From: Gammaproteobacteria bacterium
GTDB lineage: Bacteria; Pseudomonadota; Gammaproteobacteria; Pseudomonadales; Azotimanducaceae
Reading direction: 5' to 3'
DNA length: 39,399 nt
Assembly: GCA_009846005.1 (NCBI GenBank)
Contig: VXYL01000096.1
Span: 1 to 39,399 of the forward strand
The position numbers and the translations under genes were made by a program. Below are positions 18,023 through 23,153 of this stretch, one piece after another (position 1 is the first letter of the stretch; each line of letters opens with the position of its first letter). The notes beneath the pieces are model-generated. The model was given only the letters and a program-made list of their open reading frames with translations, had not been told where the DNA came from and ran no database searches.

Positions 18023-19459
18023 TCAGGGTCCGGCGAGACCTCGTATCAGCTCAATCGCGGGGGTCGGGTAGACTCCCAACGCGACGACGAGCAGGCCCAG
18101 GACTCCGATGGTCAGCAGGCCCTCCCAGGAAATGCGGCGAACTTCGTGTTGCCGGTCGTCGTCCGGGCGTTTGGTCATGGCGAAGACGATGCGCAGGTAG
18201 TAGTAGATGCCGATGGCGCTACCCACGATGAGTGCCCAGACGAGCCCCCAGGCGGCGTTGCCGACGCCGGCGGCCACGAGGTAGAACTTGGCGAAGAATC
18301 CGACGGTGAGCGGTATCCCGGCAAGCGCCAGCGCGGCGGCGGCCAGCACGGCGGCGATGACGGGGCGCCGCCACAGGAGTCCCTCGTAGCCTGAGACCTG
18401 GTCGGCGTCCTCGGTTTCGTTAGACAGGACCGTAACCACGCCGAATGCGGCCAGCGTCATGAGGAAGTAGCCAGCGACGTAGAAGAGTCCGGATTCCACC
18501 CCCAAGGCCCGCCCGGCCGCAGTGCCCGCAACGACAAGGGCGATCATCAGATAGCCGAGATGGGCGATCGACGAATACGCCAGCAGGCGTTTCAGGTTGG
18601 TCTGCAGCAGGGCGAGGATGTTGCCGACGACCATCGACAGCACCGCGATGATCGCAATCACGATGCCCACGGCCGGCGACGAGAGCAGGTCGGCGTCGAT
18701 GGCGTAGCGCAGCAGCACCGCGAACACGGCACCCTTGGATACCGTGGCAACGAATCCCGTGACGGGCGCGGGGGCACCCTGGTAGACATCGGGCGTCCAC
18801 ATGTGGAAGGGCACCAGGGAAAGCTTGAAGAAGACGCCCACCAGCAGCATGGCTTGACCGAGAACCAGGACGTTGTGTTCGCCCGCGGCGCTGTCGCCCG
18901 GGGCATCGAACGTCAACGAACCGGAGGCGGTATAGATGAGCGCCATCCCGAACAGCATGGTGCTCGACGCCGCGCCGGACAGGACGAGGTACTTGGCTGC
19001 CGCTTCAAGAGGCGGGTGACCCTCTTCGGGGTAGGCGATCATCGCGTAGAGCGAGATGGACAGCACTTCGAGTCCCATCAGGAAGGTCGCGAAATGGGAC
19101 GCGCCAGCGGTTACGGCGGCCCCGAGGGTCGCCGTGGTGAGGAGCAGGTAGAACTCCTGGCGGTGGGTGGCGCGGCTGCCGAGATAACGCGCCGAAAGGA
19201 CGGCCGTCGCGATCGCCGCCAACGAGAACAGGACGAAGAAGAACAGCGCATAGCCGTCGATTTCGAGGACGGTGTCGACGATCTGGGTGCCGCCTCCCAA
19301 GGCTGAGGGCACGAAGAGCAGCGGGATCGCCAACGTGGCGATGGCGCCCCAGAAGGCGAGGCGGTGCGACCGCAACGCGGCGACGGCGAGCAGCAACAGC
19401 ACGATGCCGCCGGCCAACGCGAGATAGGGTGCCAGCGCCCAGACCTCGGCGGCGCTCAC
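18023..19459 (-). CDS. nuoN: NADH-quinone oxidoreductase subunit N
   Basis: This 478-residue membrane protein is one of the three antiporter-like proton-pumping subunits of complex I. About 14 hydrophobic helices are seen, with the family core FKLSLVPFHMWTPDVYQGAP, the pumping-channel Glu in LMGLEVLSISLYAM, and KRLLAYSSIAHLGYLMIAL. The start is GTG 19459, whose GTGA overlaps the TGA of nuoM, so translation is coupled; GGGGAT lies eight bases upstream. It is the last nuo gene of the second block. Confidence 0.95.
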   Translation of the reverse strand: MSAAEVWALAPYLALAGGIVLLLLAVAALRSHRLAFWGAIATLAIPLLFVPSALGGGTQIVDTVLEIDGYALFFFVLFSLAAIATAVLSARYLGSRATHRQEFYLLLTTATLGAAVTAGASHFATFLMGLEVLSISLYAMIAYPEEGHPPLEAAAKYLVLSGAASSTMLFGMALIYTASGSLTFDAPGDSAAGEHNVLVLGQAMLLVGVFFKLSLVPFHMWTPDVYQGAPAPVTGFVATVSKGAVFAVLLRYAIDADLLSSPAVGIVIAIIAVLSMVVGNILALLQTNLKRLLAYSSIAHLGYLMIALVVAGTAAGRALGVESGLFYVAGYFLMTLAAFGVVTVLSNETEDADQVSGYEGLLWRRPVIAAVLAAAALALAGIPLTVGFFAKFYLVAAGVGNAAWGLVWALIVGSAIGIYYYLRIVFAMTKRPDDDRQHEVRRISWEGLLTIGVLGLLVVALGVYPTPAIELIRGLAGP

Positions 19460-20916
19460 GGCAGGATCCCCAACGTCTGGATGGTCGCGTTCGACAACTC
19501 GAGCACGGGCTGGGGATAGACGCCCACCCAGACGAGGCCTGCCATCATCGCCGCCATGACGCTCATCTCGCGCAGCCCGAAGTCACGCATGGACGCGACA
19601 TCGGGGTTCGGCGTCCCCTGGAACGAGCGCTGCATCAGGTAGAGCCCGTAGACGGCCGCGACCACGATGCCGGCGGTGGCGACGACGGCCATCACCCAGT
19701 TCTGCTGAAACGCGCCGAGAAGGGCCAGGAACTCGCCCACGAAGTTGCCTAGCCCCGGTATGCCGACGGAGGCGATCACGAAGAACAGGGTCATGGTCCC
19801 CATGCGTGGCGCATGTTTCCAGAGGCCGCCCATCTGAGACATCTCCCGGGTATGCAGCCGCTGCTGGATGGCGCCCGCCATCATAAAGAGCGCCGCCGTG
19901 GAGAAGCCGTGGGCGACCATGGTGACGATGGCGCCCTGCATGCCGAGTTCGTTGAACGCGTACACCCCGAGCAGGATGAAGCCCATGTGGGCGATGGAAC
20001 TGTAGGCAACCAGGCGTTTGAAGTCCGACTGGCTGAACGCCATGGCGCCGCCGTAGAGGATGCTCACCGTGCCGAGCAGCATCGCCCAGATCGCGAAGTC
20101 CGCCGACGCCTCGGGGAACAGCGGCACGGCGAAGCGGATGATCCCGTAGGCGCCGGTCTTAAGCAGGATGCCCGCCAGGATGACGCTGCCGGCCGTCGGT
20201 GCCTGGGTGTGCGCGTCGGGAAGCCAGGTATGAACAGGCACGGACGGCAGCTTGGTAGCGAACGCGACGAAGAAGCCGAGCATCAGCCAGATCGCAATCC
20301 GCGGCTCGATCTCGGCTTCGAGGAGGGCCTTGTAGCTGAACGTGATCTCGCCCGTCGCACCGTGGTGAACGTAGACCAGCGCCAGGATGGCAAACAGCAT
20401 GAGGAGGCCGCTGATCTGGGTGAACAGGAAGAACTTCATGGACGCGTAGGCCTTCTCCTCGTGCCCCCAGATCGCGATCAGGAGGTACATGGGAATCAGC
20501 ATCACTTCCCAGAAGAAGAAGAACAGCAACAGGTCCATTGCTGTGAAGACCCCGACGACGCCGGCCATCACCCACAGGATGTTGAACTGGAAGAAGCCGT
20601 GTCCGGCCTCGATCTCGTCCCACGAGGAGACCACGGCGACGATGCCGAGGAACATGGTGAGGGCCACCATCAGGAGGCTCAGGCCGTCCATCTCCAGGGT
20701 AAGGTGAATGCCGAACCGCCCGATCCACGGCCAGTCCATGGCGGCGTAGAGACCGCCCGCGTCCGCGCCGTCGAGCCAGAGGGCTGCAGACCAGACGAGG
20801 CCCGCGCCGAACGCCACGATGCTGACGAGGCGGGGTGCATCCTTGCTCAACCGTTCGGATGCCCAGGCTACGACGCCCGCGGCGAGGAGAGCGAGAATGA
20901 CGACGAAGAGGATCAT
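19456..20916 (-). CDS. nuoM: NADH-quinone oxidoreductase subunit M
   Basis: The 486-residue antiporter-like subunit has the conserved Glu in FFFFWEVMLIPMYLLIAIWG, the Lys in KLPSVPVHTWLPDAHTQAP, and FKRLVAYSSIAHMGFILLG. ATG 20916 overlaps the stop of an upstream 25-codon ORF as ATGA, with GGCGAG eight bases upstream as the likely ribosome-binding site. A GTG five codons earlier (20931) is an alternative. The same frame stays open through nuoL as far as 22989, but that part has no NuoM-like sequence. The first 24 residues are a diverged second copy of the preceding 25-residue ORF (see the tandem repeat entry). Confidence 0.95.
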   Translation of the reverse strand: MILFVVILALLAAGVVAWASERLSKDAPRLVSIVAFGAGLVWSAALWLDGADAGGLYAAMDWPWIGRFGIHLTLEMDGLSLLMVALTMFLGIVAVVSSWDEIEAGHGFFQFNILWVMAGVVGVFTAMDLLLFFFFWEVMLIPMYLLIAIWGHEEKAYASMKFFLFTQISGLLMLFAILALVYVHHGATGEITFSYKALLEAEIEPRIAIWLMLGFFVAFATKLPSVPVHTWLPDAHTQAPTAGSVILAGILLKTGAYGIIRFAVPLFPEASADFAIWAMLLGTVSILYGGAMAFSQSDFKRLVAYSSIAHMGFILLGVYAFNELGMQGAIVTMVAHGFSTAALFMMAGAIQQRLHTREMSQMGGLWKHAPRMGTMTLFFVIASVGIPGLGNFVGEFLALLGAFQQNWVMAVVATAGIVVAAVYGLYLMQRSFQGTPNPDVASMRDFGLREMSVMAAMMAGLVWVGVYPQPVLELSNATIQTLGILP

Positions 20917-21005
20917 CGAATCGCTCGCCACAGTGCCCACGCCACAACGCCGACCGCGAGTAGAGCGAGGATGACGATTAGGAGGCTCACTTAGACGCTC
21001 GCCAC
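20858..21005 (-). repeat. 74-bp diverged tandem duplication at the nuoL/nuoM junction
   Basis: Read on the minus strand, copy 1 runs 21005-20932 and copy 2 runs 20931-20858. Both begin GTGGCGAGCG and include GTCATxCTCGCTCTxCTCGC and a xTGGGCA near the end. By eye, 55 of 74 ungapped positions agree. Copy 1 covers the nuoL stop region and a GTG start; copy 2 covers the nuoM ATG. The offset is not a multiple of three, so reading from copy 1 ends at a TGA just where copy 2 begins its own start codon. Confidence 0.8.
20913..20990 (-). CDS. 25-residue single-helix membrane microprotein, NuoM leader paralogue
   Basis: A 26-codon ORF begins with GTG directly after the nuoL TAA (TAAGTG) and ends in a TGA that overlaps the nuoM ATG. 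The product is almost all one membrane helix, with [14 protein letters not shown] followed by a basic tail (LWRAIR). NuoM itself starts with VILALLAAGVVAWA at the same position, so this is a duplicated NuoM N-terminal helix. Within the aligned codons at least six changes are silent third-base changes (for example ATC/ATT, CTA/CTC, GTG/GTA) against few amino acid changes in the helix core, which suggests the peptide is kept by selection. GGCGAG lies upstream, inside the nuoL end. It could be a small complex I accessory peptide or a leader for nuoM coupling; it could also be an old duplication still decaying. Confidence 0.55.
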
Positions 21006-22832
21006 GATCAGGACGACCACGATCAGTCCGATGGCCATATTGGCGGCGTACCACCGCAGCCGACCGGTCTGGGTCAGGGCGCCGATGTGGTGGAAACCGC
21101 GGGTCACGGCCGCGGTGATGCGGAACAGCAGGTCGACGACGTCGCGTTTGTTCACCCGTGCCACCCAGAGGAACGGTCTGACGAAAACCCGGTCGTAGAC
21201 CCAGTCGAACGCCCAGCCGCTTTGCCAGAAACGGCGCACGGCATCGCCGAAGGGGGACTCCACCAACGCGCCGACTCTCAAGCGACCGCTGAACACCAGC
21301 CATCCGAGAAGAATCCCCGCGAGCGGCAGCGCCACGGTGACGAGTGCCGCTGGATGGGTATGCGGGATGTGGCTGATCGCGCCCAGCAGATCGTCGAGGA
21401 CGCTGAACGTCATCCATCCGCCGCCGATGGAGAGCGCGGCCAACACGACGAGCGGCCCCCACATGTTGATCCGGGACGCGTCGTGGGGTTCGGTCCTGGT
21501 TTCGCCGAAGAAGGCGACAACCATCATGCGCGTGGTGTAGAGCGCGGTCATGAACGCCGCCAGCACCCCGCCGGCCCAGAACCAGCGTCCGGCGTTCTCG
21601 TGGTCCCAGGCGGTGAGCAGAATTGCGTCCTTGCTGAAAAAACCGGAGGTGATGAACGGCAGCGCCACCAACGCGCCCGAACCGATCGCCATGCTCCAGA
21701 AAGGCACCGGCAGTTTCCGCCACAGCCCGCCCATCTTGAAGATGTCCTGCTCGTGGTGCAGCGCCAGGATCACGGAGCCGGAGGCAAGGAAGAGCAGGGC
21801 CTTGAAGAAAGCGTGGGTCATCAAGTGGAAGATCCCGGCGGACCACGCGCCGACGCCCAGCGCCATGAACATGTAGCCGATCTGGCTCATGGTGGAGTAG
21901 GCGAGGATGCGCTTGATATCGGTCTGGGTCAGCGCCGTGAAGGACGCGATGAGGAGCGTCACCAGGCCGACGATGGCAACCGCGAACTGCGCGACGGGTG
22001 CCAGGTCGTAGATCCCCTTCATGCGGGCGATGAGGTAGACCCCCGCCGTCACCATCGTCGCGGCGTGGATCAGCGCGGAGACGGGGGTGGGGCCGGCCAT
22101 CGCGTCCGGCAGCCAGGTCTGCAGCGGCACCTGTGCCGACTTGCCGACCGCGCCGCCGAGCAGCAACAGGCCGATGGCCGTGGCCATGCCCGGGTCTAGT
22201 TGCGCCGCATCCCCAAGTGCGGTCTGGATGTCGAGCGTCGCAAGCTCCCGGAACAGCAGGAACAAACCGATGGCCATCAGCGTGTCGCCGACACGGGTCA
22301 CCACGAACGCCTTGCGTGCCGCGTAGCCGTTCTCGGCATCCCGATGGTAGAACCCGATCAGCAGGTAGCTGCAGAGCCCGACGCCTTCCCAGCCGAGGAA
22401 CAGCACCAGCAGGTTGTCGCCTAGCACCAGCATCAGCATCGCGAACACGAACAGGTTCATGTAGGCGAAGAACCGGCTGTAGCCCTCGGGTTCCTGGTGG
22501 TCCTTCCACATGTAGCCGGTGGCGAACAGGTGGATCAGGAAACCGACACCCGTGATGACGCCGGTCATCACCAGCGACAGCGGGTCGAGGTAGAGCGTGA
22601 TCGACGGCGTGAAGTTGCCGACGGCCATCCAGGTCCAAAGCGTTTGGGAGTAGGACGCCTCGCCGCTCTGCGTGAACTCCATGCCGGCACCGAGGGCGAC
22701 GAGCGCCGCCAGGCCGATGGACCCCGCGCCGATGGCGGCGACGATCCTGTCGGGCAGCTTGCCCTCGGTGACGAACAGCGCGAAGAAGCCGGCGAGCGGC
22801 AGCGCGGGGACGAGCCAGAACCAATCGAGCAA
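20991..22832 (-). CDS. nuoL: NADH-quinone oxidoreductase subunit L
   Basis: This 613-residue membrane subunit is the distal proton pump of complex I. Key stretches are [16 protein letters not shown] (pumping Glu), [20 protein letters not shown] (Lys and the helix break) and [21 protein letters not shown]. The C-terminal part includes the region corresponding to the long lateral helix and ends in a final hydrophobic helix ([14 protein letters not shown]). The start is TTG 22832, with AGGAGG at good spacing that overlaps the nuoK stop; no in-frame ATG or GTG fits better. The stop TAA is followed at once by the GTG of the 25-codon ORF. Confidence 0.95.
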
Positions 22833-22841
22833 GGCCGCCTC

Positions 22842-23153
22842 CTACCCGTTCAGTTCGCTGGCGGCGTCGACGTCCAGGGTGTCGAAGCGTCGCGAGATCT
22901 GTAGTACGAGACCGAGCGCCACGGCGACTTCGGCAGCGGCCAGTGCCAGGATCAGCATGAACATGATCTGCCCGTCGGGTGCACCCCACTTGGCACCCGC
23001 CGCGATGAAGGCCAGCCCCGCCGAGTTCATCATGACTTCAAGCGACATCAGCAGGAATATGATGTTGCGGCGCACGAGCACCCCTAGGAGGCCGAGCAGG
23101 AACAGCGCGGCGGCTACCAGGAGAACATGTTCGACCGGGACTTCGATGGCCAT
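22842..23153 (-). CDS. nuoK: NADH-quinone oxidoreductase subunit K
   Basis: The 103-residue protein has three membrane helices typical of NuoK, with the two conserved membrane glutamates seen in [15 protein letters not shown] and [13 protein letters not shown]. It belongs to the membrane-arm link that passes coupling to the antiporter-like subunits. ATG 23153 shares one base with the nuoJ TGA (TGATG), so translation is coupled. The start agrees with the family length of about 100; the longer frame to 23390 is antisense-like sequence inside nuoJ. Confidence 0.95.

Follow-up and report, generated by a model that had tools for sequence, protein, structure and literature searches.

A 25-codon open reading frame that may relay translation from nuoL to nuoM across a duplicated stop–start junction

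According to passages of a 2025 review (PMC12548453), short upstream open reading frames (uORFs) deliver ribosomes to the gene to which they are coupled, and the peptide encoded by such a uORF is thought to be irrelevant. The same passages present the MIRU insertions of mycobacteria, in which the inserted element carries an open reading frame (ORF) coupled at −4 to the following gene, and the insertion therefore does little harm. Termination–reinitiation at overlapping gene pairs, as treated in parts of two further papers (PMC6728339, PMC10666635), couples neighbours through ATGA, and these neighbours are often subunits of one complex. In passages of the latter paper, a spacing of ~20 nt nearly abolishes coupling or reinitiation in two-reporter work, and a spacing of 38 nt cuts coupling by 80–100% in three E. 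coli pairs (PMC10666635). Synthetic bicistronic designs and a nonsense-peptide booster ORF, described in parts of PMC5995908 and PMC13255528, use a short first cistron that raises translation of the gene; these designs are engineered, and the booster has a strong internal ribosome site.

The ORF considered here lies between nuoL and nuoM, the genes for subunits L and M of complex I, in a 39-kb stretch of DNA (the window) whose genome is one of 16 genomes compared within the genus. Like the ribosome-delivering uORFs, it is a short ORF coupled to the gene that it would feed; however, it spans the gap between the genes for two subunits of one complex and, on the best reading, originated by duplication of their junction. 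MIRUs are repeated, apparently mobile elements, whereas the unit in the window is a single local repeat, and a 401-bp junction query matched the window's own genome at a single place. The original MIRU study is reportedly that of Supply in 1997. Compared with an overlapping pair, the window would have two coupling events in series via a 25-codon cistron, and in contrast to the synthetic designs the arrangement is natural and the nuoM start has no strong ribosome site. The feature would thus work like the known ribosome-delivering short ORFs, and what appears to be new is the nuoL–nuoM setting and the junction-duplication origin. No description of such a short ORF in the nuoL–nuoM gap, or of an origin by junction duplication, was found in the titles, abstract beginnings and passages of open-licence PubMed Central articles, and a term search of the main texts of PMC6728339 and PMC10666635 found neither "nuo" nor "NADH".

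The tandem unit at the nuoL–nuoM junction

The flanking genes were identified by profile as nuoL (NDH_I_L, E 8.7e-201) and nuoM (NDH_I_M, E 1.8e-160). The preliminary description of this DNA had claimed a 25-residue ORF reaching from the nuoL stop to an ATGA at nuoM, together with a 74-bp tandem duplication, and both were recovered (Table 1). The GTG of the ORF begins at the first base past the nuoL TAA, the ATGA overlap occupies 20913–20916, and the same ATGA is found in the sister genome L058 (JAPPAV010000034.1, IRC1_bin_7; the stretch is identical to that of G010). The two copies of the unit, at a lag of 74, are equal at 76% of 72 positions, i.e., 55, and form the strongest tandem near-duplication in the window (0.757 over 70 nt in a scan of lags 30–250), the next best reaching 0.667 over 30 nt and the following one at a lag of at least 55 reaching 0.589. 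Reading of the sequences also bore out the silent codon differences between the copies. By such reading, the extra piece consists of ~59 nt from the head of nuoM and ~15 nt from the tail of nuoL, and the unit therefore covers the stop–start junction itself. Because 74 leaves a remainder of 2 when divided by 3, the ORF of the unit terminates at the ATGA of the nuoM start. An in-frame fusion or a frameshift between the copies was not retained as an explanation, since the nuoM start is intact and 74 cannot be divided by 3.

Table 1. Features at the nuoL–nuoM junction, in window coordinates
Feature	Position	Strand	Remarks
Relay ORF, 25 codons	20913..20990	−	GTG start right after the nuoL stop; TGA overlaps the nuoM ATG (ATGA)
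nuoL, complex I subunit L	20991..22832	−	TTG start as listed (putative); TAA stop 20991–20993
nuoM, complex I subunit M	19456..20916	−	Start without Shine–Dalgarno sequence
Tandem unit, copy 1 in transcription order	20934..21005	−	nuoL 3′ end and nuoM-like head
Tandem unit, copy 2	20860..20931	−	nuoL-tail relic and true nuoM 5′ end
nuoL-3′-end-like stretch, ~15 nt	20917..20931	−	Supplies the final codons of the relay ORF in another frame; nuoM has its poor ribosome-binding region here as well

In L058, the nuoL-tail relic ends in GATTAG ahead of the nuoM ATG, which is a stop in the nuoL frame, where the window has TCG. Because the window lacks this upstream TAG, its nuoM frame (19456–22989) is open far into nuoL (1193 codons), which could mislead automatic start calling. 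A strong Shine–Dalgarno sequence (−10.2 kcal/mol) is present at the listed TTG of nuoL, and the gene apparently starts with this TTG at 22832, downstream of TAGGAGG. None is present at the relay start (−3.3 kcal/mol) or at the nuoM start (−2.7 kcal/mol; −1.5 in L058), the mean for shuffles of these two window sites being −4.9 kcal/mol, and four relatives with a gap of 0 are also without one at nuoM (−2.7 to −3.3).

Within the genus, the 74-nt unit is found in the window and in its sister L058, where 74 nt separate nuoL from nuoM. Thirteen of the 16 genomes have a direct junction with a gap of 0 or −4 (−4 in G009), and in the nearest relatives (L057, L059, L060 and L067; NuoM 95–98% identical) the nuoL stop abuts the nuoM start with 0 nt between them. 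Of the 80 named loci closest in NuoM, 52 have a gap of −4, 1 of −1, 10 of 0, 10 of +1 or +2 and 4 of +10, with 18, 34 and 74 found once each; most of these loci overlap or abut, and tight nuoL–nuoM coupling is thus usual near this genus. Absence of the ORF from close relatives had been named beforehand as evidence against its being selected. Conservation across the lineage was indeed not found, since 2 of the 16 junctions have the ORF and 14 are without it; however, those 14 are without the whole duplication, and the ORF is intact in both carriers.

The remaining genome (G012) has a different insertion, of 38 nt, at the junction (L070, 2927–2968), with a 13-codon ORF, VILKPAPGCAEAS, in which GTGA overlaps both ends. 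Judged by this layout, the separate insertion had the same outcome and is also a relay. When a tandem origin was looked for, the insert at L070 showed a weak likeness over 16 nt (11/16), reached by 1.7% of the background. In another genome of the genus (G009), the nuoM head at L040 1606, GTGAGCCTCCTGG, agrees with copy 1 of L058 at every position over 13 nt, which hints at exchange between lineages.

The sequence comparison favours an in-place tandem duplication as the origin of copy 1. An assembly artefact is unlikely, because two assemblies share the structure yet differ at 6 nt in the ORF. A competing account, which concerns the origin and not the function, is that copy 1 was imported, at least partly, from a more distant relative through recombination. 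Over 57 nt, a length too short to decide, copy 1 of L058 agrees with the nuoM head of G009 and with that of L065 at 47 positions each, and with its own copy 2 at 48; its first 24 nt are closer to the G009 and L065 heads (22 vs. 20), with which it has GTG-AGC and Leu4 in common. In addition, a nuoM tree without the duplicated codons groups the window with L058 (92/90, not starred) on a stem branch of 0.012, which is short for the many changes on the stem. However, the last 33 nt of copy 1 are nearer to its own copy 2 (28 vs. 25), the 15-nt tail relic is like the nuoL end of the close clade and unlike that of L065, and both the tandem order and the exact insertion into a gap-0 junction argue against an import. 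The tandem origin proposed in the preliminary description is therefore kept as the favoured reading, with import from a relative possible though doubtful.

Selection on the open reading frame

Between the window and L058, the ORF differs at 6 nt, of which 5 changes are silent and 1 is a conservative Ile/Val replacement. The resulting pS of 0.221 and pN of 0.019 (pN/pS ~0.09) compare with 0.256 and 0.019 for nuoM and 0.330 and 0.056 for nuoL. In a neutral simulation of the changes, the outcome of ≤1 amino-acid change and no stop had P 0.009–0.013, or P 0.031–0.037 after removal of one ambiguous site at which both copies had undergone the same change, possibly by gene conversion. The other two frames of the ORF have 4 and 5 countable changes, all of them replacements (codons read as stops were skipped), and a stop interrupts each of these frames in one or both carriers. 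The earlier suggestion that the ORF is selected rather than decaying is thus supported by the silent excess and by a pN/pS like that of nuoM, in a single species pair. The same excess is an indirect hint that the ORF may be translated. Three replacements (codons 2, 4 and 13) are among the states that the carriers have in common and the nuoM heads do not show; they are about as numerous as the shared silent changes, suggesting that the early evolution of the ORF was loose.

This pattern could also arise if the product were a functional membrane microprotein, i.e., if the single-helix 25-residue peptide acted by itself, for instance alongside NuoM within complex I or by aiding assembly, which would be compatible with a relay. 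The silent excess between the carriers is in line with such a role, and the peptide is strongly hydrophobic, with a GRAVY of 2.08 and a 17-residue maximum of 2.99, whereas the maximum is ≤1.04 in the 34 relay peptides surveyed below. However, only two species carry the ORF, which falls short of the conservation across the lineage that an accessory subunit of complex I would show; the constraint is read from one species pair and six changes, with a P of 0.03–0.04 once the parallel site is left out, and gene conversion with nuoM could imitate it; the shared replacements at codons 2, 4 and 13 also argue against early constraint on the peptide, and no Pfam or NCBIfam family matches it at E 0.001. 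A microprotein role is accordingly considered unlikely.

Bridged nuoL–nuoM gaps in other genomes

A survey covered 140 nuoL–nuoM junctions (a class sample of 40, 60 from the order and 40 further ones, the last chosen from the family of G328 and from genera known as wide), which were hand-picked from match lists before their sequence was seen. Twenty were dropped, 4 without a nuoL match or too short and 16 without a start ≤9 nt from the aligned first codon. A gap was counted as bridged if an ORF of at least 8 codons started with ATG or GTG at −6 to +20 nt of the end of the nuoL stop and its own stop ended ≤6 nt from the nuoM start; this rule was set after the first order-wide junctions had been looked at, and the start rule was changed between that look and the final count. 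The ORF in the window passes the rule, its stop overlapping the downstream start. The 120 usable junctions comprise 26 gaps of ≤0, 5 of 1–10, 44 of 11–39, 41 of 40–140 and 4 of >140 nt, wide-gap groups having been deliberately sought. Gaps of ≤0 are thus a minority in this wider sample, unlike near the genus of the window, and gaps of 11–39 nt are common in it and mostly too short for a testable relay.

The idea of a relay came from L143 and L144, two loci of the class sample with wide gaps and a short ORF from the nuoL stop to an ATGA, unlike NuoM in sequence. With these two, the window and L058 left out, 12 of 14 wide junctions pass the rule, where ~2.0 are expected. Of the 41 gaps of 40–140 nt, among which L143 and L144 are counted and the window and L058 are not, 34 are bridged, compared with 7.34 expected from dinucleotide shuffles, and 0 of 200,000 simulated draws reach 34. 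Counted as one per genus, 12.3 of 18 are bridged with 3.0 expected, a value reached by none of 20,000 draws. These two counts favour the translational coupler that had been offered as one possible role of the ORF. Among the loci fetched once the rule was fixed, 20 of 22 are bridged (4.35 expected), 20 of the 22 being from genera already seen; two new genera appear among the last wide gaps, of which L261 passes and L244 fails. The frame of the TGA in ATGA is open in 28 of 34 wide ATGA junctions, compared with 9 and 13 for the other frames. Six loci of genus g348 end in TGATG (offset +1), not ATGA.

The 7 failures are of several kinds. In L149, L166 and L169, a different likely start of nuoM lies nearer to nuoL; in L244 and L246, a −4 bridge begins 23 and 42 nt past the nuoL stop; and L195 and L216 have only ORFs that extend 19 and 10 nt into nuoM. 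Above 140 nt, none of the 4 gaps passes the rule; L255 and L256 (177–178 nt) and L199 (214 nt) are wide and unbridged and possibly have a ribosome site of their own, a promoter or an RNA element. The nuoL–nuoM gap of E. coli K-12 (163 nt), checked as a counter-example, has no bridge and so is one. As a control, 13 ordinary co-directional E. coli gaps of 40–139 nt were read by eye, with pseudogenes and RNA genes left out, and gave 3 bridges against 1.16 expected, so the shuffles may understate the background. By this small control, real spacers seem to be bridged at a rate somewhat above that of shuffles and below that of nuoL–nuoM gaps. The bridging ORFs found by the rule in E. coli K-12 include one of 17 codons between chiP and chiQ (L278, 9741–9791) and one of 26 codons between yhdJ and yhdU (L279, 12538–12622). 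A tandem origin was also sought for the other relays; identity reached 47% at most, and such an origin is therefore seen in the window's lineage only.

Across these groups, the frame is kept and the peptide usually is not. In g325, the relay has a pN of 0.275 and a pS of 0.284 (pN/pS 0.97), compared with 0.049 and 0.306 for the first 80 nuoM codons. The relays of g45 have a pN/pS of 2.15 in the set with 121-nt spacers and of 0.48 in one pair, and in g348 and one g295 pair there are a few replacements and no silent change in the relay. Spacer lengths step by multiples of 3 in g45 (121 in four, 130 in two), g325 (93 in five, 90 in one) and g348 (77 in five, 68 in one). They do not step by 3 in g295, in g368 (67, 72, 74, 93 and 98) or in g316 (69 and 86), where the start lies at a varying distance from nuoL and the frame into nuoM is retained, the exceptions being L216 (g316), which fails the rule, and L246 (g368), which fails solely through its late start. 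Between genera, the relay peptides have at best a short, weak likeness (E 0.01 in blastp-short), e.g., in the endings of g356 and g368, and they are mostly polar, with a median GRAVY of −0.73 (n = 34). What these relays share is an open frame between two genes, and a hand-over of ribosomes therefore fits better than a common peptide. In g45 (L144, L224, L225, L257, L258 and L260), the relay ORFs have 42–45 codons and keep a C-terminal PTITIKDAITP ahead of the nuoM start, the remainder being variable.

A translational relay and its meaning

We propose that the 25-codon ORF is a translational relay that restores nuoL–nuoM coupling across the spacer, to which we assign a probability of roughly 0.7. 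The anatomy of the relay, its recurrence and the conservation of its frame are direct observations; the steps of its action are conjectural. A ribosome terminating at the nuoL TAA would reinitiate at the GTG of the relay, translate its 25 codons, terminate at the ATGA and reinitiate on nuoM. This serial termination–reinitiation would feed a gene whose start has no Shine–Dalgarno sequence of its own, and nuoM may depend on it, with a possible benefit for the balance of the subunits. Many of the bridged nuoM starts elsewhere carry a moderate Shine–Dalgarno sequence of their own (median −5.7), and the dependence of nuoM on the relay may thus differ between lineages. The peptide sequence would be secondary to the frame, although in the window's lineage the peptide may be retained as well, for its hydrophobic helix.

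The relay would have been born here through duplication of the stop–start junction. Such a duplication is self-bridging, because the copy puts its own start at the upstream stop and, with the right remainder, ends on the downstream start; it therefore needs no further repair. A neutral remnant, i.e., a recent duplication that happens to have left an open frame with no function, is quite improbable, for although 20–30% of shuffles of this spacer (window and L058) are bridged by chance and the duplicated piece was already coding, neutral drift with so few amino-acid changes and no stop has P ~0.01, wide gaps elsewhere are bridged far beyond chance, and the copies differ at 24% while start, frame and ATGA are kept in both carriers.

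A broader interpretation is that NuoL–NuoM coupling is so strongly selected in this gammaproteobacterial branch that most longer spacers repeatedly become translated relays from different sequence, with junction duplication as the self-bridging route and, in the window, a copy of NuoM helix 1 becoming a membrane microprotein. We advance this only tentatively, at odds clearly below even.

The finding points to frames that are conserved as frames, not as peptides, at one junction of a central enzyme. Such frames tend to be omitted by gene callers and would be dismissed by dN/dS screens, and they carry a warning that small ORFs between the genes of an operon may be couplers and not proteins. Duplication of a stop–start junction offers a simple birth route for small ORFs. 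For complex I itself, the relay allows a test of whether the antiporter-like subunits L and M rely for their balance on the hand-over of ribosomes from one gene to the next.
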